Origin: Hyphomicrobiales bacterium
Lineage (GTDB): Bacteria; Pseudomonadota; Alphaproteobacteria; Rhizobiales; Aestuariivirgaceae
DNA: 36,062 bases
Assembly: GCA_025359265.1 (NCBI GenBank)
Contig: JANYHB010000007.1
Span: 1 to 36,062, forward strand
Direction of reading: 5' to 3'
Shown here one piece after another: positions 18,791 to 34,506 of this stretch (positions are counted from its first letter, which is position 1; each line of letters starts with the position of its first letter). The translations under genes and the position numbers were made by a program. Under the pieces are notes generated by a model. It worked only from the letters and a program-made list of their open reading frames with translations, did not search any database and had not been told where the DNA came from.

Positions 18791-19549
18791 ATGAATTATT
18801 GGCAATATGTGTTGCTGGTTATTGCTGGCATTTTTGGCGGAATTGCCAATTCGATGGCAGGCGGTGCTTCGCTCTTCACGTTCCCAGCCATGCTGAGCAC
18901 GGGCCTGCCCGCCATCATTGCCAATGCTTCGAATGGATTTTCACTTTTGCCGGCAAATTGTTTGGCAGCGATAATGGACCGCGACAAATTGCCTGCTCGC
19001 CAGTTTGGCTTTTGGCTGGCGCAGGGGCTGGCCTTCGTCGGCGGCGTGCTGGGCGCATTTTTGCTTTTGTACACCCCGGCGCGGTTCTTCACTTTGTTAA
19101 TTCCAGCTCTTATCGGCCTTGCAACAGTCACCTTTATTTTCGCGGCGCAATTGCGCGCCAGCCTTGGGCGGTTGATTGCGGGCGATGATCACCCGCGGCT
19201 TCGCGCGGCATTGGTTTTCATTGCCGCCGTCTACGCGGGTTATTTCGGTGCCGGTGTGGGCGTGGTGTTCATGGCCATTTTGGGTGCAACCACGGCCTGG
19301 GGATTGCGGACGACAAATGCCTTCAAGAATGTTTTGGGCTTTACAGCCAATGTTGCGGGCTGTTTCGTGTTCGTCTGGCAAGGCCTTATCGCCTGGCCTG
19401 AAACTTTAACCCTGATGCTGGGAACCGTTTTGGGTGCCTATATTGGAACGCGGTTGCTGAAGGTATTGCCCGTAACATTGGTGCGCAATTTCATCGCCTG
19501 CGCGGGCGTGGTGATGACGGCGATTTATGTTTTTCGTTTCTGGCTATAG
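18791..19549 (+). CDS. TauE/SafE family sulfite/anion exporter
   Basis: 252 residues with about eight hydrophobic segments in two halves. It opens with GIFGGIANSMAGGASLFTFPAML, and the second half has YFGAGVGVVFMAILG and NAFKNVLGFTANVAG, the two Gly-rich signatures of the TSUP (TauE/SafE) family. Members move sulfite, sulfonates or other organic anions across the inner membrane; the substrate here is unknown. Its 3' end overlaps the psuG 3' end by 25 bp in convergent orientation. It diverges from the DedA fusion gene (90 bp between starts). The Shine-Dalgarno sequence is weak (GAGA). Confidence 0.87.
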   Translation: MNYWQYVLLVIAGIFGGIANSMAGGASLFTFPAMLSTGLPAIIANASNGFSLLPANCLAAIMDRDKLPARQFGFWLAQGLAFVGGVLGAFLLLYTPARFFTLLIPALIGLATVTFIFAAQLRASLGRLIAGDDHPRLRAALVFIAAVYAGYFGAGVGVVFMAILGATTAWGLRTTNAFKNVLGFTANVAGCFVFVWQGLIAWPETLTLMLGTVLGAYIGTRLLKVLPVTLVRNFIACAGVVMTAIYVFRFWL

Positions 19550-20445
19550 GCCTTGGCGATTTGGGCCGCGAGTTTTGCATTGTTTTCAACCAGGGCGATG
19601 TTGGCCTTGAGGGACCTTCCGAATGTAGCCTCGGCGATCGCCTTCAACAGAAAGGGCGTGGTGTCTTTGCCGTCAATCCCTTGGGTTTGCGCCAGCTTCA
19701 ATGCGGCTTGAATGATCGGCTCAATTTCGGATGCCGGGATTTCCTCTGCCGCGGGAATGGGATTGGCCACGACAATGCCGCCCCGCAAATTCATTTTCCA
19801 TTTGGCCCACATCATCGCCGCAATCTCGTCTGGCGTGTTGAGGCGCATCGGCACCCTGAAGCCAGAGCAGCGCGAATAAAAAGCCGGGAATTCATCAGTT
19901 GCAAAACCCACAACAGGCACGCCCAAAGTTTCCAAAGTTTCAAGCGTGAGGCCCAAATCAAGAATAGCTTTGGCCCCCGCTGTCACCACTGCCACATTGC
20001 TATTGGCGAATTCGGTGAGATCAGCTGAGATGTCAAACGTGGTTTGCGCGCTCCGATGCACACCACCCATCCCGCCTGTGGCAAAAACTCTAATTCCCGC
20101 CATTTCCGCAATGCGCATCGTGGAGGCCACCGTGGTTGCGCCGTTCAGCTTTTGCGCCACCACAAAGGGCATGTCTCGCGTAGAAACTTTGATGATTGAA
20201 GAACCTTCTTGGGCGAAAAGCTGCAATTCTTTTTCTGAAAGTCCGGCGCGTAATACACCCTTGATGATGGCGATTGTTGCGGGCACCGCACCACCATGGC
20301 GAATAATGCCTTCAACTTTCTGCGCCATTGCGAAATTCTGCGGGTATGGCATGCCGTGAGCTATGATGGTGCTTTCGAGGGCAACAACCGGCTTGCCCTT
20401 CGCGATGGCGGCTTTAACAGCGGCGCTGAATTTAACTTTCATCAT
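19525..20445 (-). CDS. psuG: pseudouridine-5'-phosphate glycosidase
   Basis: 306 residues. It cleaves the C-C glycosidic bond of pseudouridine 5'-phosphate to uracil and ribose 5-phosphate (reversible). Strong family sequence: VALESTIIAHGMPYPQN (Glu24 is the counterpart of the conserved catalytic Glu), GAVPATIAIIKG, IIKVSTRDMPFV with the Schiff-base Lys, GIRVFATGGMGGVHR and FYSRCSGFRVPMR. The ATG directly abuts the psuK stop codon, so the two are a coupled kinase-glycosidase pair. Unusually, they are the end of an operon that starts with a LysR regulator and an MttB-family methyltransferase. No pseudouridine transporter is adjacent. Confidence 0.95.
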   Translation of the reverse strand: MMKVKFSAAVKAAIAKGKPVVALESTIIAHGMPYPQNFAMAQKVEGIIRHGGAVPATIAIIKGVLRAGLSEKELQLFAQEGSSIIKVSTRDMPFVVAQKLNGATTVASTMRIAEMAGIRVFATGGMGGVHRSAQTTFDISADLTEFANSNVAVVTAGAKAILDLGLTLETLETLGVPVVGFATDEFPAFYSRCSGFRVPMRLNTPDEIAAMMWAKWKMNLRGGIVVANPIPAAEEIPASEIEPIIQAALKLAQTQGIDGKDTTPFLLKAIAEATFGRSLKANIALVENNAKLAAQIAKAYSQKRKT

Positions 20446-21306
20446 CTATTCCAAAGTTGAGTATTCTGTTGCGATTACTTTTGCCGCTGTCTCTTGGCCA
20501 AGCGTTGCGGCGTTGGCGAGGGGCAGTTCTTGAATCAAGCCATAGATGAGGCCGGCCGTTGCCGCATCGCCCGCACCTGTCACATCGATAATTGTCTGCG
20601 CTGGTGATGGAATATGCGTGATGGTGCTACCGTCCGAAACATAGGCACCCAGCGCGCCGGCATGGATCACGATGTTAAGAAGGCCCAGCTGGTGTAGTAT
20701 GGCAATGCCCACGGCGATATCGCGCGTGCCGGTGAGGGCGCCCAGCTGATCGAGATTTGGCGTCGCCAGAAACACGGTGTGGTTTTTAAGAAGGGCCAAC
20801 AGCTTTTGGCATTTTGAAACCGAGACGGGTTCAACCACCAATTTGTTCGCGGCCTGGCTGGCGATTTCGTCCAACACGTCTGGTTCCAAATTGCAATCCG
20901 CCAGAACAAATTTTTTCTCTGCCACAACATTGCGTTTTTGTTCAACATGGGTTTTTGAAAGCCACGTCAGGCACTTCATGTCGGAGGCTGCCGTTATCAA
21001 TTCCCCGGTTTCGTCCAGCAAAGCGACATATGTGCCCGTCGCCACGTTCATGAAAATACTATGGGCCAAACTCACGTCAGCTTTTTCCGTGGCTTTGGTG
21101 ATCATGGCGCCATTGGCATCATTGCCGAGCACGGTGATCAAATCCGTGTCGATGCCAAGGCGTGCCAGATTATGCGCAATGTTGCGGGCCACGCCGCCGG
21201 GCTTGACTTGGATTGCTGCTGGGTTTGAGGTGGCTGGCACGTGGGCGGCCAGGGTTTTTGCCTTGATGTCAGCATTGGCCCCGCCGATGACAAGAACGCC
21301 ATTCAC
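20446..21306 (-). CDS. psuK: PfkB-family kinase, likely pseudouridine kinase
   Basis: 286 residues from the GTG at 21306, one base after the mttB-like stop codon. PfkB fold: N-terminal VLVIGGANADI with substrate-binding Asp, the KPGGVARNIAHNLARLG motif that binds sugar and is typical of pseudouridine/ribose kinases, and the C-terminal DVTGAGDAATAG with the anion hole and catalytic Asp. It should phosphorylate pseudouridine to its 5'-phosphate for PsuG. The assignment to pseudouridine rests on the directly abutting psuG; a related C- or N-nucleoside is possible. Codon 1 could also lie further upstream inside the mttB-like gene, but those residues (Arg/Ala-rich) look non-coding. Confidence 0.88.
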   Translation of the reverse strand: MNGVLVIGGANADIKAKTLAAHVPATSNPAAIQVKPGGVARNIAHNLARLGIDTDLITVLGNDANGAMITKATEKADVSLAHSIFMNVATGTYVALLDETGELITAASDMKCLTWLSKTHVEQKRNVVAEKKFVLADCNLEPDVLDEIASQAANKLVVEPVSVSKCQKLLALLKNHTVFLATPNLDQLGALTGTRDIAVGIAILHQLGLLNIVIHAGALGAYVSDGSTITHIPSPAQTIIDVTGAGDAATAGLIYGLIQELPLANAATLGQETAAKVIATEYSTLE

Positions 21307-21307
21307 C

Positions 21308-22858
21308 TTAAAAATCCGTCGGCGCGCCGCCCTCGCGTTTGCGCCGTTCCACAAATTCTTTCAACTCTTCATGTACGGCATCATCCATCGGTGGCTTTTG
21401 GTATTCGGCCAGCGCCTGCTTGTAAACGTGGTTGGCTTTCTGCCAGGCTTGCGGGCTGCCCGCCGCCACCCATTGTTGATTGTTGCGCCAATCGGAAATC
21501 AAAGGCTGGTAGAACGCGGTAGTATATCGCGCCAAAGTGTGTTGCGCTCCAAAAAAATGCCCGCCGGGGCCCACTTCCCGGATCGCTTCAATGCCAAGGG
21601 CATCTTCATTTATTTCAAGGGGTTGCAGGAATTCGCTCACCATTTGAATCAGGTCCACGTCCAGCACAAATTTTTCGAAAGAGGCAACCAAACCACCCTC
21701 CAACCAACCTGCACCATGCATGATGAAGTTGCCCCCGCCTTGGGTTAACGCCCAGAGGGAAAACACGCTTTCATAGGCTGCCTGCGCATCCACCATGTTG
21801 GCGGCACACGTGTTGGAGGTGCGGTAGGGAATTTTATAGCGGCGCGCCAATTGTCCGCCCGCCATAACAGCTTTCATATATTCCGGTGTGCCAAAGGCAG
21901 GCGCACCTGATTTCATATCCACGTTAGAGGTGAAGCCACCATAGATGACGGGCGCGCCCTTTTTCACCAACTGACAAAAGGCCAGCCCGGCCAAGGCCTC
22001 GGCGTTTTGTTGCACTAAGGCGCCCGCAACCGTAACCGGCGCCATGGCCCCCGCCAAAGTGAACGGCGTTACACAAACCGATTGACCGGCTCCTGAAAAG
22101 CGCATCATGCCTTGCAGCATGTTGTAATCCAACTTCAGCGGCGAGTTGGTATTTACAACGGTCGTGATCGAACATTCACGCTCGAATTGTGCTTGGGGTT
22201 TGCCGCTGACAATGCGTCCGATCTCCAGCGCATCAATGGTTCTGGCATCACCCAAAACATAAGCCGTCATCGGCTTGTCCATAAGTGTGGCCATGTCATA
22301 AAGCGCATCGAGATGGCGGATGCCGGCATGAATATCAACAGGCTCAACCGGATAGCCCGCTGAAAAATTGATCGCATTGAAATGTTGGCCCAACATCAAA
22401 AACTTCTGATAGTCGGCGCGGTTGCCCACCCGACGCCCGCCTTCCATATCATGGCAGTTGGGTGGTGAGCCCACGGTGCCAAACACCATATTGTCGCCTC
22501 CAATATGGAGTGTGTGCGCAGGGTTGCGCGAATGCATCACGAAGGTTTCAGGAGCATAAGAGACCAGCTCCTCCACCATTGCCGGATCAAAACGCACCCG
22601 CTCGCCGTCTATTCTTGCACCCGCTTTCTTCCACATGGCGCGAGCATCGTCATGCAAGAAATCCATGCCAATTTCAGACAGCACACGCAGAGACGCATGA
22701 TGGATTGATTCAACTTCATCATCGGAAATTATTTTTGTGGGGGTGAAGCGGCGCTGCAATTTGCGTGGCACCTGCTGCTGTAATCTACCACCATCTCCGG
22801 CTTGCGGATTGCCACGTGCGCCACCTCTGCGGCGACGCGGTTCGGTTTCCATGCTCAT
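21308..22858 (-). CDS. MttB-superfamily (trimethylamine methyltransferase-like) protein 1
   Basis: 516 residues with the full MTTB (COG5598) fold: an Arg/Gly-rich N-terminus (RRRRGG), SIHHASLRVLSEIGMDFLHDD, DNMVFGTVGSPPNC, GAGQSVCVTPFTLAGAMAPVTVAGALVQQNAEALAG, and C-terminal VGPGGHFFGAQHTLARY. Characterised members move a methyl group from a quaternary or tertiary amine to a corrinoid protein. There is no in-frame TAG, so it is a non-pyrrolysine member, like the glycine betaine, proline betaine or carnitine enzymes; the substrate cannot be read from sequence. The ATG overlaps the lysR stop by 4 nt and the stop lies 1 nt before psuK, a tight coupling. Confidence 0.92.
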   Translation of the reverse strand: MSMETEPRRRRGGARGNPQAGDGGRLQQQVPRKLQRRFTPTKIISDDEVESIHHASLRVLSEIGMDFLHDDARAMWKKAGARIDGERVRFDPAMVEELVSYAPETFVMHSRNPAHTLHIGGDNMVFGTVGSPPNCHDMEGGRRVGNRADYQKFLMLGQHFNAINFSAGYPVEPVDIHAGIRHLDALYDMATLMDKPMTAYVLGDARTIDALEIGRIVSGKPQAQFERECSITTVVNTNSPLKLDYNMLQGMMRFSGAGQSVCVTPFTLAGAMAPVTVAGALVQQNAEALAGLAFCQLVKKGAPVIYGGFTSNVDMKSGAPAFGTPEYMKAVMAGGQLARRYKIPYRTSNTCAANMVDAQAAYESVFSLWALTQGGGNFIMHGAGWLEGGLVASFEKFVLDVDLIQMVSEFLQPLEINEDALGIEAIREVGPGGHFFGAQHTLARYTTAFYQPLISDWRNNQQWVAAGSPQAWQKANHVYKQALAEYQKPPMDDAVHEELKEFVERRKREGGAPTDF

Positions 22859-23763
22859 TCTTTAACTGCCTCCAATGCCGGATCAGCGGCCACTTGTTTT
22901 ACCAGCCACTCTTCAAAGCGGCGGACCTTGTTTTTTGAGCGGTTGGCGCTGGCGCAGGCAAAATACCAGCCATGGCGGTGTGGCACGCGCAAGGGCAAAG
23001 GTTGTACCAAGCGGCCCAATTTAATTTCTTCGGCGGCATAAGGGCCAATCGTCATGGCCACGCCCCTGCCCTCAATTGCCGCTTCTTGCGCCAATATATA
23101 ACTATCAACTGAAAGCCGATTGGCTGGTTTCACATTCTTCACGCCTGCCGCATCCAACCAGATTTGCCAATCTTCCTCAGCGGTATAAACATCGATGAGC
23201 TTGCTGGTTTTCAAATCGGCAAGCTTCGTCAAATTAAGTTTTGGCGAACACACGGGCACAAGATATGATTTGAATAGCGGCCGATAATAATGGTTCGGCA
23301 ATTTATTGCGGGCCAGAATAATGCCCACGTCAACGTCGCGTTCATTGAAATCCCAATCGAAGTAAGATGTTGAAAGCCGCACTTTCACATCGGGGTAGCG
23401 GCGCTCAAAATCATGCAGGCGCGGGATCAGCCATTTCAGCGCCACCGTCACATAAACCTGGATGGTTAGTTCCATGTCCGTATTGGCCGGACGCAAGGCG
23501 CGGGTTTGAGCTTGGATTTGATCAAATGCATCACGCACGGGCGGATAATAGCTGTGCCCTGCGGTGGTCAATTCCGCGCGCCTCGCATCACGGCGGAAGA
23601 GCTGCACTTCAAGGCGCTGCTCGAGCAATTTGATCTGATGGCTGATGGCAGACCGCGTGATCCCCAGTTCCCCGGCGGCCATTCGAAAAGAACCCAGCCG
23701 CGCTGCAGCCTCAAAGGCTGTCAAAGCGCGCAAAGGCGGCAAATCACGACGTGCCAATTTCAT
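22855..23763 (-). CDS. LysR-family transcriptional regulator (GcvA-like)
   Basis: 302 residues. The winged HTH is at ~6-65 (LRALTAFEAAARLGSFRMAAGELGITRSAISHQIKLLEQRL with LFRRDARRAELTTAG). The effector-binding domain follows and includes YVTVALKWLIPRLHDFERRYPDVKVRLSTS, the GcvA/AmpR-type arrangement. It is the first gene of the minus-strand operon with mttB-like 1, psuK and psuG (ATGA overlap) and is divergent from mttB-like 2. It probably regulates both directions, with an effector related to the pathway substrate. The candidate binding region is the nested dyad at 23765-23830. Confidence 0.93.
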   Translation of the reverse strand: MKLARRDLPPLRALTAFEAAARLGSFRMAAGELGITRSAISHQIKLLEQRLEVQLFRRDARRAELTTAGHSYYPPVRDAFDQIQAQTRALRPANTDMELTIQVYVTVALKWLIPRLHDFERRYPDVKVRLSTSYFDWDFNERDVDVGIILARNKLPNHYYRPLFKSYLVPVCSPKLNLTKLADLKTSKLIDVYTAEEDWQIWLDAAGVKNVKPANRLSVDSYILAQEAAIEGRGVAMTIGPYAAEEIKLGRLVQPLPLRVPHRHGWYFACASANRSKNKVRRFEEWLVKQVAADPALEAVKE

Positions 23764-23764
23764 T

Positions 23765-23830
23765 CACCCCAAATCAGGAACCCAACTGATTGTAGCATAG
23801 GTTTTTTCCAGTTGGGTTGGCAGTGGGGTG
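23765..23830. promoter_or_regulatory. nested inverted repeat in the lysR / mttB-like 2 control region
   Basis: Inner arms AACCCAACTG (23779-23788) and CAGTTGGGTT (23809-23818) are a perfect 10-bp inverted repeat with a 20-nt spacer. Outer arms CACCCC (23765-23770) and GGGGTG (23825-23830) lie around them symmetrically in sequence, and the match continues imperfectly into TTTCA/TGAAA. The element starts one base upstream of the lysR ATG. A plausible plus-strand promoter overlaps its right arm: TTGGCA (23817-23822), 16 nt, TATTAA (23839-23844). The position suits LysR autoregulation plus control of the divergent operon. It could instead act as an RNA hairpin in the lysR leader. Confidence 0.6.
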
Positions 23831-23921
23831 GTGAAATTTATTAAACATTGGTGAGGCTCGCCCCCTTGGCAAGTGAAGGGGCGTGGCGCATTTTACCGCC
23901 GTAATTAAAATTGAGGAAAGC

Positions 23922-25490
23922 ATGAGTCTCATCGAAGAGCAATTCCGTCGGCGCGGCGGGCGTGAAGCACGCAGAGTCTTGCGCGCCACGGCCATTCCGA
24001 TGTCGCAAGCTGCGGTGCGGCCCGGCATGGAAGGCGGCCAATACAAGCCGTTGAAAGATGCAGAGATGCAACGCATTCATCAAACGGCGTTGAAGCTTTT
24101 GAATGAAGTGGGCCTGGCGCGGGCCATCCCCTCTTGCATTGCGGCAATGACAGCACGAGGCTGTTTCATGCGCGACAATGGCAGGCTGTGCATTCCGCCG
24201 GCATTGGTTGAAGACATCCTGGCCTCTTGTGCCAAGAACTTTGTGCTGCACGCGCGTGATCCGCAATTGGACATGCAGCCGTGGGGCAACAAAGTTTATT
24301 TCGGCACAGCAGGTGCTGCGGTTCACGTGGTCGAAATCGAAAATAATTCTTACCGTGAATCTTATCTGGCTGATCTTTATGATGCGGCGCGCATTGTGGA
24401 CACGTGCGAAAATATCCATTTCTTCCAGCGTTGCCTCACCGCGCGAGATATGTTGACGGGGCATGATCTGGATATCAACACGCTCTATGCTTCCATCGCT
24501 GGCACCAACAAACACGTGGGCACATCCATGGTGGAAGCTGCGCATGTGGATGAATGCTTGCAAATTTTGCATTATGTGGCAGGCGGCGAAAAGAAATGGC
24601 GTGAGCGGCCGTTTGTTTCGCAATCCAACTGCTTTGTGGTTCCGCCGCTTAATTTCGCCGAGGACGCTTGTGCTTGTTTGGAAACAGCAGCGCGTGGCGG
24701 CATGCCCGTATTGTTGCTTTCTGCTGCACAAGCTGGGGCCACATCACCCGCGGCGCTGGCTGGCACCGTGGTGCAAGCGGTTGCTGAGTGTTTGGCGGGC
24801 CTGGTTTATATCAACTGTGTGGTGCCCGGTGCCATCGCCATTTGGGGGCCTTGGCCTTTCGTGTCAGACTTGCGCACCGGCGCCATGAGTGGCGGTTCGG
24901 GTGAGCAAGCATTGATCACATCGGCATGCGCCCAGATGGGGCATTACTTTGGGCTGACGGTAGGCTCCGCATCCGGCATGTGCGATGCCAAGATGCCGGA
25001 TATTCAAGCGGGCTATGAAAAAGGTTTGACGGCGGGCATATCCGCAATGACAGGCATCAATTTGATGTATGAGTCCGCGGGCATGCACGCCTCGCTTTTG
25101 GGTTTTTGTTTGGAAAGCCTGCTCATTGACAATGATATGTTAGGCTCCATCAACCGCAATGTGCGCGGCATTGAAGTGAATGAGGATACACTTTCCTTCG
25201 ACGTGATTTCCGAAACCTGCCTCGGCGGGCCGGGCCATTATCTTGGCAGCGAGCAAACCTTGTCGATGATGATGACCGAATATGTCTATCCGAAAATGGC
25301 CAACCGCATGAGCCCGAAGGAATGGAATGAAGCAGGCAAGCCCGATATTTTAAAGAAGGCCATTGCCAGGAAAACGGAAATTCTCTCCAGCTATTACCCC
25401 CAATATATCCCGCGCGACATTGATGAAATGATCCGCGCCAAGCACGATATCAAACTCCCGCGTGAATATATGCAGGAGAAAACTTCGTAA
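23922..25490 (+). CDS. MttB-superfamily (trimethylamine methyltransferase-like) protein 2
   Basis: 522 residues from the ATG at 23922, with GAGGAAAG just upstream (23913-23920). An in-frame start at 23883 has no ribosome binding site. A paralogue of the 21308-22858 product and of similar length, with an Arg/Gly-rich start (FRRRGGREARR), MQRIHQTALKLLNEVGLA, NKVYFGTAGAAVH, GATSPAALAGTVVQAVAECLAG, and a C-terminal LGGPGHYLGSEQTLSMM. It ends with TAA, has no internal TAG and so is not a pyrrolysine protein. The sequences differ enough to suggest different substrates. It leads the plus-strand operon with an Fe-S protein (2 nt later), a homocysteine methyltransferase and a GFA-type protein. Confidence 0.92.
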   Translation: MSLIEEQFRRRGGREARRVLRATAIPMSQAAVRPGMEGGQYKPLKDAEMQRIHQTALKLLNEVGLARAIPSCIAAMTARGCFMRDNGRLCIPPALVEDILASCAKNFVLHARDPQLDMQPWGNKVYFGTAGAAVHVVEIENNSYRESYLADLYDAARIVDTCENIHFFQRCLTARDMLTGHDLDINTLYASIAGTNKHVGTSMVEAAHVDECLQILHYVAGGEKKWRERPFVSQSNCFVVPPLNFAEDACACLETAARGGMPVLLLSAAQAGATSPAALAGTVVQAVAECLAGLVYINCVVPGAIAIWGPWPFVSDLRTGAMSGGSGEQALITSACAQMGHYFGLTVGSASGMCDAKMPDIQAGYEKGLTAGISAMTGINLMYESAGMHASLLGFCLESLLIDNDMLGSINRNVRGIEVNEDTLSFDVISETCLGGPGHYLGSEQTLSMMMTEYVYPKMANRMSPKEWNEAGKPDILKKAIARKTEILSSYYPQYIPRDIDEMIRAKHDIKLPREYMQEKTS

Positions 25491-25492
25491 AA

Positions 25493-26134
25493 GTGGAACA
25501 CCCCATTCTCAACCGCATCCAGCAGGAGAGTTTCACCCCCTTCGGCTGGTTTGCACCAACGGATCTGGGGAGCACAAAGTTTATCATTCTCATCGGCAAT
25601 GCCGGGCCAGCGATGTTTCGCCGGTTCTGCCGCGAAGGCGGCGGCATCATGGACGATTGGACACGGCGGGTGGTTAATTCTTTGGCGCAAGATTTGGGCG
25701 CTACGGCGGCTTTTCCTTTCGATGCGCCTTACCTGCCCTTTCAACAATGGGCGCGTGCCGCAGGCAACATATACCAATCACCGCTGGGCCTGAACATTCA
25801 TAAGGTTTATGGACTTTGGCACGCTTACCGGGCCGCCCTGTTGTTTCCGACGGCGGTTGGCCTCCCCCGGCCCATTGCCAGTTTACATCCTTGCGAAAGT
25901 TGCCGCACCAAGCCCTGTCTATCGGCCTGTCCGGTTTCGGCGTTCAATGGTCGTAAATATGAGGTTGATGCTTGTATCGGGCATCTACACTCGCGCAATA
26001 ATTGCACCGAAAGTGGTTGCCTCGCACGCTTGGCCTGCCCCGTTGGTGTGCCTTTCCGCTATGAGAAGCCACAAATGCAATTCCATATGAATGCACTCAA
26101 GGCCGCCCATGAGCTACGACCAGATCGCCGCTAA
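25493..26134 (+). CDS. ferredoxin-like protein with eight clustered cysteines
   Basis: 213 residues from a GTG 2 nt after the upstream stop. The N-terminal ~125 residues contain KFIILIGNAGPAMFRRF and a YLPFQQWARAA block. The C-terminal part has C134-x2-C137-x4-C142-x3-C146-Pro and C161-x9-C171-x4-C176-x5-C182-Pro, enough ligands for two [4Fe-4S] clusters, arranged much like the ferredoxin part of epoxyqueuosine reductase. Proteins of this layout occur in alphaproteobacteria without an assigned role. Between an MttB-like and a homocysteine methyltransferase gene, a role as electron donor or corrinoid re-activator is tempting, but it lacks the RamA architecture. It overlaps the next gene by 26 nt. 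Confidence 0.8.
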   Translation: MEHPILNRIQQESFTPFGWFAPTDLGSTKFIILIGNAGPAMFRRFCREGGGIMDDWTRRVVNSLAQDLGATAAFPFDAPYLPFQQWARAAGNIYQSPLGLNIHKVYGLWHAYRAALLFPTAVGLPRPIASLHPCESCRTKPCLSACPVSAFNGRKYEVDACIGHLHSRNNCTESGCLARLACPVGVPFRYEKPQMQFHMNALKAAHELRPDRR

Positions 26135-27020
26135 ACTTAAGAAAGGCCAAACCATCATTATTGATGGCGGCACGGGAACCGACATAGAGCGACGCGGCGG
26201 AAAAATGAGTTCGGCCACTTGGTGCGCTGATGCCAATCGTAATTTTGGTGAGATTATCACCCAAGTCCACGCAGATTATATCAAGGCGGGTGCTGAGGTG
26301 ATTGCAGCCAATACTTTTGCAACCTCAATGTTGTCTTTCAATGCCTATGGGCGCGATGAAGAAGTGGAAGAACTGGATGCGCTGGCGATTTCTTATGCCA
26401 AAGCAGCGGCTGCAAAAACGGAGGCCGCGGTTGCGGGTTCTTTCTCCACGATGCGGCCGGTGATTAAAGGAACGGATCGCACAGATTTAACCAGGAATTG
26501 GACAGAGGCTGAAGCCAAAGTTTTGTTCCGCCGCAAGGCTGCGAATTTGAAAAAGCATGGCGTTGATTTCATCATGATGGAAATGATGCGCGATGCAGAC
26601 TATTCGCTTTGGGCTTGTGAAGTGGCCAAAGAAACCGGACTGCCGATGTGGATTTGCATTTCCGTTGAACGGCATAACGGGGAATTGGTGGGCTTTGGGC
26701 GCGCCGATCAAAAGCTGGCGGATTTCGCCCCCAAACTTTCGTCTTTGAAGCCCGATGCAATGTGCATTATGCACACCTCCCCCAATGACACGCACAATGC
26801 CCTGTTGATATTGCGACAAAGTTGGTTGGGGCCAATGGGGGCCTATCCGGAATGCGGCTATTATAAAGCACCAAACTGGGTGTTCCATGATGTCATTGCG
26901 CCCGAAGATTTGGTGGCCAAGGCGCAAGAGTGGCAAGAGCTGGGTGCCACCATTTTCGGCGGTTGCTGTGGCATTGGGCCAACCCACATCACAGCACTGG
27001 CAAGGGGGATTAAATCGTGA
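26109..27020 (+). CDS. homocysteine S-methyltransferase family protein (BHMT-like)
   Basis: 303 residues from the ATG at 26109, overlapping the Fe-S gene. TIM-barrel Pfam S-methyl_trans family: IIIDGGTGTDIERRGG at the N-terminus, YIKAGAEVIAANTFATS, and the zinc-binding set C219 (AMCIMHTSP), C286 and C287 (FGGCCGIGPTHI). Enzymes of this family pass a methyl group to homocysteine, giving methionine, from donors such as betaine or S-methylmethionine. In this operon it could accept methyl groups released by, or share a substrate with, the MttB-like proteins. The donor is not determinable from sequence. Its stop overlaps the next start (GTGA). Confidence 0.9.
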   Translation: MSYDQIAAKLKKGQTIIIDGGTGTDIERRGGKMSSATWCADANRNFGEIITQVHADYIKAGAEVIAANTFATSMLSFNAYGRDEEVEELDALAISYAKAAAAKTEAAVAGSFSTMRPVIKGTDRTDLTRNWTEAEAKVLFRRKAANLKKHGVDFIMMEMMRDADYSLWACEVAKETGLPMWICISVERHNGELVGFGRADQKLADFAPKLSSLKPDAMCIMHTSPNDTHNALLILRQSWLGPMGAYPECGYYKAPNWVFHDVIAPEDLVAKAQEWQELGATIFGGCCGIGPTHITALARGIKS

Positions 27021-27391
27021 AAACTGGATCGTGCCTCTGTGGCCAAGTCGCTTTCGAAATTCACGGCCCGCTCTCGGATGTAACGGCCTGCCATTGCGGC
27101 CAATGCCGCAAGCAAACCGGCAACTACTGGTCTTCCACGCATTGTGCAGATGGCGATTTAATGTTTACGCGCCAAGATGGCCTCAAATGGTTTGCATCCA
27201 GCAGTTTTGCCAAGCGGGGCTTTTGCAAAGACTGTGGCTCAACCTTGTTTTGGAAACAAAATGATGAAACCACCACTTCAATCTGTCTTGGCAGCATAGA
27301 TGGCAAGTCTGGTTTGAAGCTGGGGGGCCATATTTTCACCGCTGATGCCGGAGATTATTATGTCATCGCCGGCGGCGATTACGTGAAATAA
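27017..27391 (+). CDS. GFA-family (glutathione-dependent formaldehyde-activating enzyme-like) protein
   Basis: 124 residues from a GTG at 27017 that overlaps the preceding stop by 4 nt. Mss4-like fold with zinc ligand pattern GSCLCG (C6, C8), CHCGQC (C25, C27, C30) and the later FCKDCGS pair. The first studied member, Gfa, was linked to formaldehyde-glutathione adducts, though that activity is doubted for many relatives. Its tight coupling to methyl-transfer genes makes a link to formaldehyde or another one-carbon intermediate reasonable. That is inference from context. No signal peptide is seen; it should be cytosolic. Confidence 0.9.
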   Translation: MKTGSCLCGQVAFEIHGPLSDVTACHCGQCRKQTGNYWSSTHCADGDLMFTRQDGLKWFASSSFAKRGFCKDCGSTLFWKQNDETTTSICLGSIDGKSGLKLGGHIFTADAGDYYVIAGGDYVK

Positions 27392-30831: not shown

Positions 30832-33800
30832 ATGCGGATTGAACGTCATTATACTAAAGCGGGCCAGGATGCTTACGCGGGATTGGATTTCCGCGTTGGG
30901 GTGAGCGAAATAAAAAATCCCGATGGTTCCATCGTTTTCCGTTTGGCTGATATTGAGGTGCCTGCCTCGTGGAGCCAGGTGGCCACCGACATTTTGGCCC
31001 AAAAGTATTTCCGCAAAGCCGGTGTGCCCAAGGCTTTGAAGCGTTTTGAAGAAGAATCCGTTCCGTCGTGGTTGTGGCGTTCCATTCCAGATGAAGAGGC
31101 TTTGACTGGCCTTACCGCCAAAGAACGCATCACCGGCGAACGCTCGGCCAAGCAGGTGTTCAACCGCCTTGCGGGCACGTGGACGTATTGGGGCTGGAAG
31201 GGCAAGTATTTCAGCACCGAAGAAGACGCGCGCGCCTTTTATGATGAAATGTGCTTCATGTTGGCCACCCAAAAATGTGCGCCCAATTCACCACAATGGT
31301 TCAATACCGGGCTGCATTGGGCTTACGGCATCGACGGGCCCGCACAAGGCCACCACTATGTTGATTTTGAAACGGGCAAGCTGACTAAATCCAAAACCGC
31401 TTACGAACATCCGCAGCCCCATGCCTGCTTCATCCAATCCGTCTCTGACGACTTGGTAAACGAGGGCGGCATTATGGATTTGTGGGTGCGCGAAGCGCGG
31501 CTGTTTAAATATGGCTCTGGCACCGGTTCAAACTTCTCCATGTTGCGCGGCGAAGGCGAAAAACTTTCCGGCGGCGGCAAATCGTCAGGCCTGATGAGCT
31601 TCCTTAAGATTGGAGACCGCGCAGCCGGTGCCATCAAGTCTGGCGGCACCACGCGCCGTGCGGCCAAGATGGTGGTGGTGGATGTTGATCACCCGGATGT
31701 AGAAAACTACGTCGAATGGAAAGTGAAAGAAGAACAGAAAGTAGCCGCTCTCGTCACGGGTTCAAAGATTGTCAAGAAGCATCTTACCGCGATCATGAAG
31801 GCATGCGTGAATTGCGAAGGCCCCGGCGGGGATTGCTTTGAAATTGAAAAGAACCCGGCCCTCAAGCGCGCGGTTAAAGATGCCCGCCGCAACCAGGTTT
31901 CTGACAATTATATCAAGCGCGTCATTCAGTTCGCCAAGCAAGGTTATACTGAAATTGAATTCGACACCTACGATTCGGATTGGGATGGCGAAGCTTACCG
32001 CACGGTCTCTGGCCAGAATTCCAACAATTCGGTTCGGGTCACTGATGAATTCCTCGGCGCTGTGGAAAAAGACGGCGATTGGAATCTTGTTGGCCGCACC
32101 AATGGCAAGATTTTCAAAACCCTGAAGGCGCGTGAATTATGGGACAAAATTGGCCACGCCGCTTGGGCATCAGCTGATCCTGGCATTCAGTTCCACACCA
32201 CCATCAACGATTGGCACACGTGCATCGGCTCTGGCGAAATTCGCGCCTCAAACCCATGCTCTGAATATATGTTCTTGGATGATACCGCCTGCAACTTGGC
32301 TTCATTAAACCTGTTGCAATTCCGCAATGTGGCCACGGGCAAATTCAACATTGCGGCTTATGAACATGCCACGCGGTTGTGGACGGTGGTTCTGGAAATT
32401 TCGGTTCTCATGGCGCAGTTCCCGTCGAAGGAAATTGCTCGCCTGTCTTATGAATATCGCACGCTGGGCCTGGGCTTTGCCAATATCGGCGGGCTTTTGA
32501 TGACGGCTGGCATTCCATATGACAGCCACGAGGGCCGGGCCATTTGTGCCGCGATTTCGGCAATCATGACAGGCATTGCTTATGCAACGTCAGCTGAAAT
32601 GGCTGCTGAACATGGGCCATTTTTGGGCTTTGCCAAGAACCGTGAACACATGCTGCGCGTGATGCGCAACCATCGCCGCGCGGCCTATGGTGCGGCTGTG
32701 GGATATGAAAACTTGCATGTTGCACCTGTGCCGCTGGATGAAGCTGAGCTTTCGGAAAAGTCACTGGCCCTGGCCGCCCGCAAAGCGTGGGACAAAGCCG
32801 TTGAATTGGGCGAAGCCCATGGCTACCGCAACGCCCAGGCCACAGTGGTGGCCCCAACCGGCACCATTGGTTTGGTGATGGATTGCGACACCACGGGCAT
32901 TGAGCCGGATTTCGCCTTGGTGAAGTTCAAAAAGTTGGCAGGCGGCGGTTATTTCAAAATCATCAACCAGGCCGTGCCAGAGGCTCTGCGCACCTTGGGT
33001 TATAATGCCGACCAAATCGAAACCATCATCAATTATGCCGTGGGCCATGGCTCACTGGCCGATTCGCCCACACTCAATCATGCGCAGCTCAAGGCCAAGG
33101 GTTTTGGCGATGAGCAGATTGAAAGGATTGAAGGCGGTTTGGCCTCCGCTTTTGATATCAAATTCGTATTTAATAAATGGGCCATCGGCGAAGACTTTTG
33201 CGAGAACGTTCTCAAACTCACCGATGTTCAGCTGAATGACTTCTCTTTCGACATGCTGGCTCATTTGGGTTTTTCACGCGCTGATATTGATAAAGCCAAT
33301 ATCCATGTGTGTGGTGCCATGACTCTCGAAGGTGCTCCCGGTTTGAAGGATGACCATCTTCCCGTGTTTGATTGCGCCAATGCGTGTGGCCGCATCGGCA
33401 AGCGTTATCTCTCTGTTGAAAGCCACATTCGCATGATGGCCGCTTCACAGCCCTTCATCTCAGGTGCCATTTCCAAAACCATCAATATGCCGAATGAGGC
33501 CACGGTGGAAGAATGCTCGGCCGCCTATATGATGAGCTGGAAATTGGGCGTGAAGGCCAATGCGCTATACCGTGATGGCTCAAAGCTCTCGCAACCTTTG
33601 TCATCGCAGCTGCTCGCAGATAATGATGATGAAAGTGAAGACGTGGTTGAAACCCTCACCGCCAAATCCATGCCAGCGCGGGTGGAAACGGTGGTGGAAA
33701 AGATTATTGAGCGTATTATTGAGCGCGTGGCCGGCCATCAAGAAAAGCTGCCTGGCCGCCGCAAAGGCTATACGCAAAAGGCTAAAATTGGTGGCCACAC

Positions 33801-34506
33801 GGTGTTCTTGCGCACCGGTGAATATGAAGATGGTCGCTTGGGCGAAATTTTCCTTGATATGAACAAGGAAGGCTCAGCGCTGCGTGCCTTTATCAACAAC
33901 TTTGCCATTTCAGTATCTCTTGGCCTGCAATATGGCGTGCCGCTGGAAGAATATGTGGATGCCTTCACCTTCACCAAGTTTGAACCTGCCGGCATTGTGC
34001 AAGGTAATGACTCAATCAAAAACGCCACGTCGATCCTGGATTATGTGTTCCGCGAATTGGCGGTGTCTTATCTCAGCCGTCATGACCTTGCGCATGTTGA
34101 ACCCTTGGATATGCATTTTGATGCGCATGCCAAGAACGAAGGCATGGAACAACAGAAACCTTCGGCTCCAGCCCAGCGCTTTGTGTCGAACGGCTTTGTG
34201 CGCCGCCAAAACCTGGCCAATGTGGTGATGATGCCGCAGCAGGCCGCAGCCTCTTCGCCCGCTCATGCCTTGCAAATGCGCGTGGGCGATAGTGTGGGCG
34301 CACCTTTGGCCGCCGTTGGTTTAACAGAAGCGCCAGTGATGGCTTATGAAGCATCCAAGCCGGTGAGAGCCATGGATCAACGCGCCCAGGCCCGGATGAA
34401 AGGCTATGAAGGCGATAGTTGTGGCGAATGCGGCAACTTCACCATGGTGCGCAACGGCACGTGTCTGAAGTGTGATACCTGTGGCAACACGAGTGGCTGT
34501 TCGTAA
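30832..34506 (+). CDS. nrdJ: vitamin B12-dependent (class II) ribonucleotide reductase
   Basis: 1224 residues from the ATG at 30832, with AAGGGA 10 nt upstream; an in-frame ATG at 30718 would add 38 residues that look like untranslated leader. It reduces ribonucleotides to deoxyribonucleotides using adenosylcobalamin as radical source, without oxygen dependence. Active site: N474-P-C476-S-E478 (thiyl Cys 476), with the redox pair C199 (ACFIQS) and C487 ([10 protein letters not shown]). Other family sequence: [45 protein letters not shown]. The C-terminal tail has C1197-x2-C1200 and C1211-x2-C1214-x2-C1217, a zinc-like, disulfide-shuttling end typical of the long alphaproteobacterial NrdJ. A terminator follows. 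Confidence 0.97.

Follow-up and report, generated by a model that had tools for sequence, protein, structure and literature searches.

Mtg-type cobalamin-dependent demethylation has been shown in marine roseobacters. In Ruegeria, passages of PMC12478193 describe MtgB, MtgC, MtgD and MtgE as carrying out betaine demethylation and methionine synthesis, the corrinoid transfer giving methyl-tetrahydrofolate (methyl-H4F) or methionine and not formaldehyde. In Phaeobacter, methionine synthesis needs RamA-like and DUF1638 proteins, and the role of DUF1638 is left open in the relevant part of PMC5764234. Pseudouridine scavenging is represented by the Escherichia coli enzymes PsuK and PsuG. Here we analysed a locus of a Hyphomicrobiales bacterium of the Aestuariivirgaceae that combines genes of both kinds. 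It lies on contig JANYHB010000007.1 (assembly GCA_025359265.1), whose 36,062 nucleotides are the window of this study; the window is an entire contig of a 2.65-Mb genome that is 99.9% complete. One arm of the locus consists of lysR, mttB1, psuK and psuG, and the divergent arm of mttB2 and the genes for an 8-Cys iron-sulfur (Fe-S) protein, a BHMT-like protein and a small GFA-domain protein.

The locus is probably a lineage-specific accessory cluster of an Mtg-type cobalamin methyltransferase system that has recruited a canonical psuKG scavenging pair. Gene content and order, their conservation and separability, and the conserved residues were read directly from the sequences compared. In the scheme that we infer for the substrates, the protein roles, the shared regulation and the reason for the joining of the two sets, the substrate of MttB1 would be a betaine, a quaternary amine with a carboxyl group, and that of MttB2 another methylated compound; each enzyme would pass a methyl group to a free MtgC encoded elsewhere in the genome. 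From MtgC the methyl group would pass to H4F or, via MtgE-type enzymes, to methionine, and the Fe-S protein would probably help to keep the corrinoid reduced. The lysR-mttB1 arm would have taken up psuK-psuG, whose products would break pseudouridine down to uracil and ribose 5-phosphate; this scavenging route would run in parallel and share its expression with the arm.

As in MtgBCDE, the glycine betaine methyltransferase and split methionine synthase of Ruegeria pomeroyi and Phaeobacter inhibens (described in parts of PMC12478193 and PMC5764234), an MttB-family enzyme occurs with a free MtgC, DUF1638 and a RamA-like activase, and there are several MttB paralogs per genome. All three components by which we recognized an Mtg-type system were found: contig C29 of the same genome encodes the free B12-binding protein MtgC, DUF1638 beside it and an MtgE-like S-methyl_trans protein, and contig C38 a RamA-like activase. 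Unlike in MtgBCDE, the MtgC and MtgE-like genes are on a contig other than that of the locus, and the locus itself has two divergent mttB genes, an extra Fe-S protein of QueG/MMACHC-like predicted fold, an apparent His variant of a BHMT-like protein, the GFA protein, a GcvA-like LysR and psuKG. In 15 of 30 genomes of the genus, the stretch fetched around the locus also contains DUF1638 and MtgC, as it does outside the genus in G326, G363 and G028. Such a system would extend the Mtg type to bacteria other than the marine roseobacters from which it is known.

Conservation and separation of the two gene sets

The comparison covered 30 genomes of the genus of the window (25 plus five more). An mttB1 ortholog, defined by 67% identity or more, was present in 27 of them and was not found in G013, G014 and G006, the last of which has an assembly fragmented into 820 contigs; psuG was present in 28, all except G301 and G406. 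Immediately behind mttB1 on the same contig, psuK was located in 24 of the 27 mttB1-bearing genomes, and the exceptions include a contig break in G022 and a contig that stops 311 nt past mttB1 in G406. The gaps between mttB1 and psuK, estimated from alignment ends, lay between -8 and +8 nt for 22 of the 24 genomes (144 nt in G015 and 77 nt in G178), and those between psuK and psuG were -7 to 119 nt across the genus. Given 24 of 27 genomes, the adjacency is not due to chance, and neither it nor the operon-like packing noted in the preliminary description is unique to this genome. The locus was found in two chromosomal settings, with rnr/mfs and/or tauE/dedA in nine genomes and with DUF1638-MtgC in 15 others, which indicates that its genes stay together as one unit. 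In some genomes two M16-peptidase genes lie between gfa and the MFS gene (L031:8259-10937).

The two sets were also found apart. In G013, psuG-psuK adjoins FeS-GFA-DUF1638-MtgC back to back, and the 20-kb stretch lacks mttB1, mttB2, lysR and the BHMT-like gene; in G014, psuKG is at a contig end and mttB1 and mttB2 are not present. Each of these two genomes has one MttB match, of another subfamily and about 42% identical to MttB1. Conversely, G301 has mttB1, mttB2, FeS and BHMT and lacks psuKG, with a third gene, mttB3, 31 nt from mttB1. In another genus of the same family (G326) the order is lysR-mttB1//mttB2-FeS-BHMT-GFA-DUF1638-MtgC without psuKG, and L101 has the same set, without DUF1638-MtgC in view and again without psuKG. 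In one genus of the family (G239), psuG but no psuK lies between mttB1 and mttB3, and no psuK remnant was found between mttB1 and psuG (L184:7903-9222); a reading frame that we take to be HxlR-like fills the position. Among 80 named-collection loci of MttB1 relatives, kept from 587, psuK or psuG was within 6 kb in nine, of which seven belong to genomes included in the counts above; outside the genus, neither was within 6 kb in any of 71 loci. Likewise, none of 19 fetched psuG stretches from outside the family had an MttB neighbour.

This separation bears on the idea, put forward in the preliminary description, that the locus encodes one pathway in which MttB1 and/or MttB2 demethylates a (pseudo)nucleoside or C-glycoside that carries a methyl group, N1-methylpseudouridine for example, before PsuK and PsuG cleave it. 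The tight packing, conserved in 22 of 24 genomes, would fit such a pathway, and a uracil anion as leaving group is chemically not absurd. According to a portion of PMC9247573, N1-methylpseudouridine is bound by E. coli PsuK, and its phosphorylation runs at about 6.8% of the rate with pseudouridine, a slow turnover that could make a demethylation step useful. However, psuKG occurs without mttB1 and mttB2 in G013 and G014, the reverse holds in G301, and other genera (G326, L101) carry the methyl-transfer set without psuKG. Moreover, MttB1 keeps the Asn, Arg and His that are predicted to bind the carboxylate of a betaine and has no clear shift in specificity, and the residues of PsuK are those of the enzyme for the unmethylated substrate. 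Since each half occurs on its own in some genomes, a single pathway was rejected as the leading view and is now highly improbable; with either set retained alone in relatives, the two sets probably work side by side.

At the other extreme, psuKG might be a passenger, inserted once behind mttB1 in the ancestor of the genus and inherited vertically with no function in common. The restriction of the adjacency to this genus and, as psuG without psuK, to one genus of the same family (G239), the psuG loci outside the family, none of the 19 with an MttB neighbour, and the separate loss of the halves are all consistent with this. Against it, the arrangement has been kept in 24 of 27 genomes despite divergence of MttB1 to 67-82% identity within the genus and changed surroundings, the mttB1-psuK gap has stayed between -8 and +8 nt in 22 of these 24, and psuK of G013 is still back to back with FeS-GFA-DUF1638-MtgC although the mttB genes are gone. 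We regard a passive passenger as unlikely. The conserved link to pseudouridine is a testable puzzle, namely which signal controls both sets. In the open-licence PMC literature, no paper was found on a gene set with mttB and psuG, in agreement with the earlier remark that no described pathway has it; one paper, a review on pyrrolysine, combined pseudouridine with trimethylamine methyltransferase.

Residues of the MttB, PsuK and PsuG enzymes

Both mttB products match nearly the full PF06253 profile (656.7 bits for mttB1 and 347.8 bits for mttB2; cut-off 25), so the MttB-type methyl transfer genes were correctly recognized. MttB1 matched 4yyc, 2qne and 9yce in the PDB. The MtgB contacts with glycine betaine (Y94, N199, R309 and H345) are docking predictions given in a section of PMC6855144. 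Three of these four, N199, R309 and H345, are kept in MttB1, in 22 of 22 psu-linked sequences and 75 of 75 other relatives. None of the four is kept in MttB2, where Phe, Gly and Glu replace N199, R309 and H345 in 21 of 21 sequences. In the tree, psu-linked MttB1 (22 sequences), mttB3 (seven) and the MttB2 of the locus (21) form separate clades, each with support 1.0.

Fixed differences were counted in columns conserved at 90% in both groups. Psu-linked MttB1 differed from the 75 non-psu relatives at two of 187 columns, and MttB1 from MttB2 at 135 of 204; for mttB3 the counts were six of 151 against the relatives and 14 of 191 against psu-linked MttB1. A group about 40% identical gave zero of 98 against the relatives as well, which makes the test a weak one when groups are heterogeneous. 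This weakness counts against our reading of a betaine-type methyltransferase cluster with a recruited pair, and so do four further points. At the MtgB position Y94, MttB1 has Gly or Ala, and at F353 it has Gly. A simple scan of 26 lysR/mttB2 intergenic regions, whose alignment has short conserved islands, found no shared LysR palindrome or operator. Most of the genomes are metagenome-assembled, with broken contigs. Finally, parallel scavenging alone does not explain why psuKG stays in the operon.

The best PDB match of MttB2 was the pyrrolysine-type MttB 7xcl (205 bits). A pyrrolysine enzyme was ruled out: neither mttB1 nor mttB2 has an in-frame stop (pyrrolysine UAG) in its open reading frame, and, unlike 7xcl, MttB2 has Met352 (ATG) at the archaeal pyrrolysine position in 21 of 21 aligned sequences. 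The Rfam family PYLIS_3, the pyrrolysine insertion sequence of mttB, matched at 24978-25077 (+) with 57.4 bits (gathering 38). The match begins exactly at the ATG of Met352, equivalent to the pyrrolysine codon, and probably reflects coding-sequence homology.

PsuK and PsuG form a canonical pseudouridine scavenging pair as judged from their residues, as had been proposed. The best PDB match of PsuG was E. coli PsuG (4gij), ungapped and with E 1.2e-103. Seven positions that we take to be those of the active site (E. coli Glu31, Lys93, Thr130, His137, Asp149, Lys166 and Asn289) are all kept in 46 non-identical sequences, with one gap. For PsuK, the best PDB match was E. coli PsuK (7vkp), and the best NCBIfam model was PRK09850, an E. 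coli-type equivalog model of pseudouridine kinase, at 157.4 bits, below its cut-off of 540. All 13 pseudouridine contacts of E. coli PsuK, taken from the pertinent part of PMC9247573, are identical in the window and near-invariant in 27 sequences. The locus thus shares with E. coli both enzymes, the order psuK-psuG and all checked residues, and differs in that lysR-mttB1 precedes the pair in the same packed gene string.

Several other arrangements of MttB relatives were observed. A third mttB follows psuG in L035, L037-L041, L054, L073 and L184, and directly follows mttB1 in L204. A DAO-GcvT oxidoreductase gene was within 6 kb in 36 of the 71 loci of MttB1 relatives outside the genus, and the genome of the window has a 72% homolog of it, with one TGA counted inside the match. 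As in L138 and L049, such relatives are often near both this oxidoreductase and a DddP-like protein (DMSP lyase, for dimethylsulfoniopropionate), which scored 516 and 438 bits in these two loci (cut-off 600). On the Ruegeria pomeroyi megaplasmid (L150), an MttB2 homolog is followed by genes for a class III aminotransferase, two FAD oxidoreductases and a TPP enzyme, a set that could suit the degradation of an amine, for example taurine betaine.

The iron-sulfur, BHMT-like and GFA-domain proteins

The newest parts of the locus are the 8-Cys protein, a candidate corrinoid reductase, and the BHMT-like enzyme with its apparent His ligand. The former has 213 residues with eight Cys invariant in 16 of 16 sequences, and matched neither a Pfam nor an NCBIfam model at E 0.001. 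Its identification by sequence alone was abandoned, the best profiles being at E 0.085-0.1 with a phage capsid protein equally good. An AlphaFold2 model (pLDDT 83.2, pTM 0.77) gave six Foldseek matches against the PDB at E <=0.001, all of them QueG. The top match, 5d08, had E 1.8e-4, probability 1.00, a TM-score of 0.51 by query length and an rmsd of 8.8 Å, and the next were MMACHC (3sby, E 1.6e-3) and PceA (E 1.2e-2). The model thus suggests, with moderate confidence, a QueG/MMACHC-like fold; with TM about 0.5 and rmsd 6-9 Å the resemblance is at the level of the fold. The protein is like QueG, MMACHC/CblC and the corrinoid reductive dehalogenases in predicted fold and in its two Cys4 motifs, and unlike them in its 213 residues and in having no known substrate domain.

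In Sinorhizobium meliloti (pSymB) and Paracoccus aminovorans the Fe-S gene is directly behind an mttB gene, and the annotation of the clusters around it lists a cobalamin-binding protein, DUF1638, methylenetetrahydrofolate reductase and methyl-H4F:cobalamin methyltransferase; the P. aminovorans cluster adds an ASKHA-domain (RamA-like) protein. Among 386 alphaproteobacterial genomes, the Fe-S protein was found in 85, MttB in 83 and DUF1638 in 79. MttB was present in 64 of the 85 Fe-S-positive and 19 of the 301 Fe-S-negative genomes (Fisher p 3e-37, uncorrected for kinship). Neither MttB nor DUF1638 was present in 19 of the 85, 15 genomes had both without the Fe-S protein, and MttB, MtgC, RamA or DUF1638 was within about 2.5 kb at five of 40 Fe-S loci fetched from the positive genomes. 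The counts of five of 40 and 19 of 85 rule out a family strictly bound to MttB, and the protein is associated with, and not confined to, these systems. It is a concrete candidate for a further protein that reactivates the corrinoid.

The BHMT-like protein has His222, Cys286 and Cys287 where family members have three Cys, and all 27 sequences keep His222 and both Cys. His222 falls at the zinc-ligand Cys of MtgE and MetH, exactly in the phmmer alignment and one residue off in MAFFT. The third zinc ligand thus appears to be His, and the three zinc Cys of homocysteine S-methyltransferase, BHMT and MtgE are not all present. A single-sequence fold of the protein had a mean pLDDT of 39.1 and was not used. 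One possibility is that the protein makes methionine directly, taking the methyl group from methyl-MtgC. Its PF02574 fold (156 bits) and the action of MtgE in Ruegeria and Phaeobacter (reported in parts of PMC12478193 and PMC5764234) argue for this role. On the other hand, it shares only about 23% identity with the MtgE-like protein that the same genome encodes, it scores below the NCBIfam homocysteine-methyltransferase cut-offs (112.6 against 215 and 81.3 against 338 bits), and its gene has been lost from the fetched G013 stretch. Together with the apparent His ligand, and with a more typical S-methyl_trans protein encoded on C29, these points make direct methionine synthesis doubtful, and the earlier proposal that this enzyme passes the methyl group to homocysteine was not upheld. 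The protein may represent a variant of thiol methyltransferase whose zinc site is unusual.

Capture of formaldehyde by the GFA protein, also proposed earlier, finds no support either. The protein has the GFA domain (PF04828, cut-off 24.3), and scores far below the cut-offs for a glutathione-dependent formaldehyde-activating Gfa (22.9 bits against 234.55 for TIGR02820 and 20.4 against 249 for PRK05417); corrinoid transfer, in the system treated in a part of PMC12478193, yields no formaldehyde.

As a tentative extension of the accessory-cluster reading, the Fe-S protein might be the founder of a group of stand-alone CblC-plus-ferredoxin reductases that reactivate MtgC or a related carrier alongside RamA and DUF1638 in aerobic alphaproteobacteria. 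The His-Cys-Cys BHMT-like protein might methylate a thiol other than homocysteine, and psuKG might be kept because the MttB1 substrate and pseudouridine share a source. We hold this combination to be doubtful as a whole.

Gene layout and neighbouring genes

Gene calls were based on a list of open reading frames with Pfam and NCBIfam profile searches, and all eight genes were recovered with each gap and overlap first reported (Table 1). In the lysR arm, lysR and mttB1 overlap by 4 nt, mttB1 and psuK are separated by 1 nt, and psuK and psuG by 0 nt. In the mttB2 arm, a 2-nt gap between mttB2 and FeS is followed by overlaps of 26 nt (FeS/BHMT) and 4 nt (BHMT/GFA). The range of 20446-27391 originally given for the locus holds for seven of the genes, with psuG just outside.

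Table 1 Genes of the locus and the divergent intergenic region in the window.
Feature	Position	Strand	Description
psuG	19525-20445	-	pseudouridine-5'-phosphate glycosidase; PF04227 429 bits
psuK	20446-21306	-	PfkB-family pseudouridine kinase; PF00294; GTG start
mttB1	21308-22858	-	MttB-superfamily corrinoid methyltransferase, predicted betaine type; PF06253; without pyrrolysine codon
lysR	22855-23763	-	GcvA-like LysR regulator; first gene of mttB1-psuK-psuG arm
divergent intergenic region lysR/mttB2	23764-23924	.	161 nt
mttB2	23925-25490	+	divergent MttB-superfamily methyltransferase; PF06253; alternative GTG start possible at 23883
8-Cys Fe-S protein	25493-26134	+	predicted two [4Fe-4S] clusters, QueG/MMACHC-like fold; candidate corrinoid reductase
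BHMT-like S-methyltransferase-fold protein	26109-27020	+	PF02574 156 bits
GFA-domain protein, small	27017-27391	+	PF04828 67 bits

The lysR product scored 286.1 bits with the NCBIfam GcvA model (cut-off 288). A promoter and terminator scan was uninformative, with 11 promoter-like sites where 7.2 were expected and 13 sites resembling terminators where 13.4 were expected. Downstream of the locus, a gene for a B12-dependent ribonucleotide reductase is located at 30832-34506 (+) (PRK07562, 2259 bits; cut-off 1737), and the same gene adjoins the locus in several relatives.

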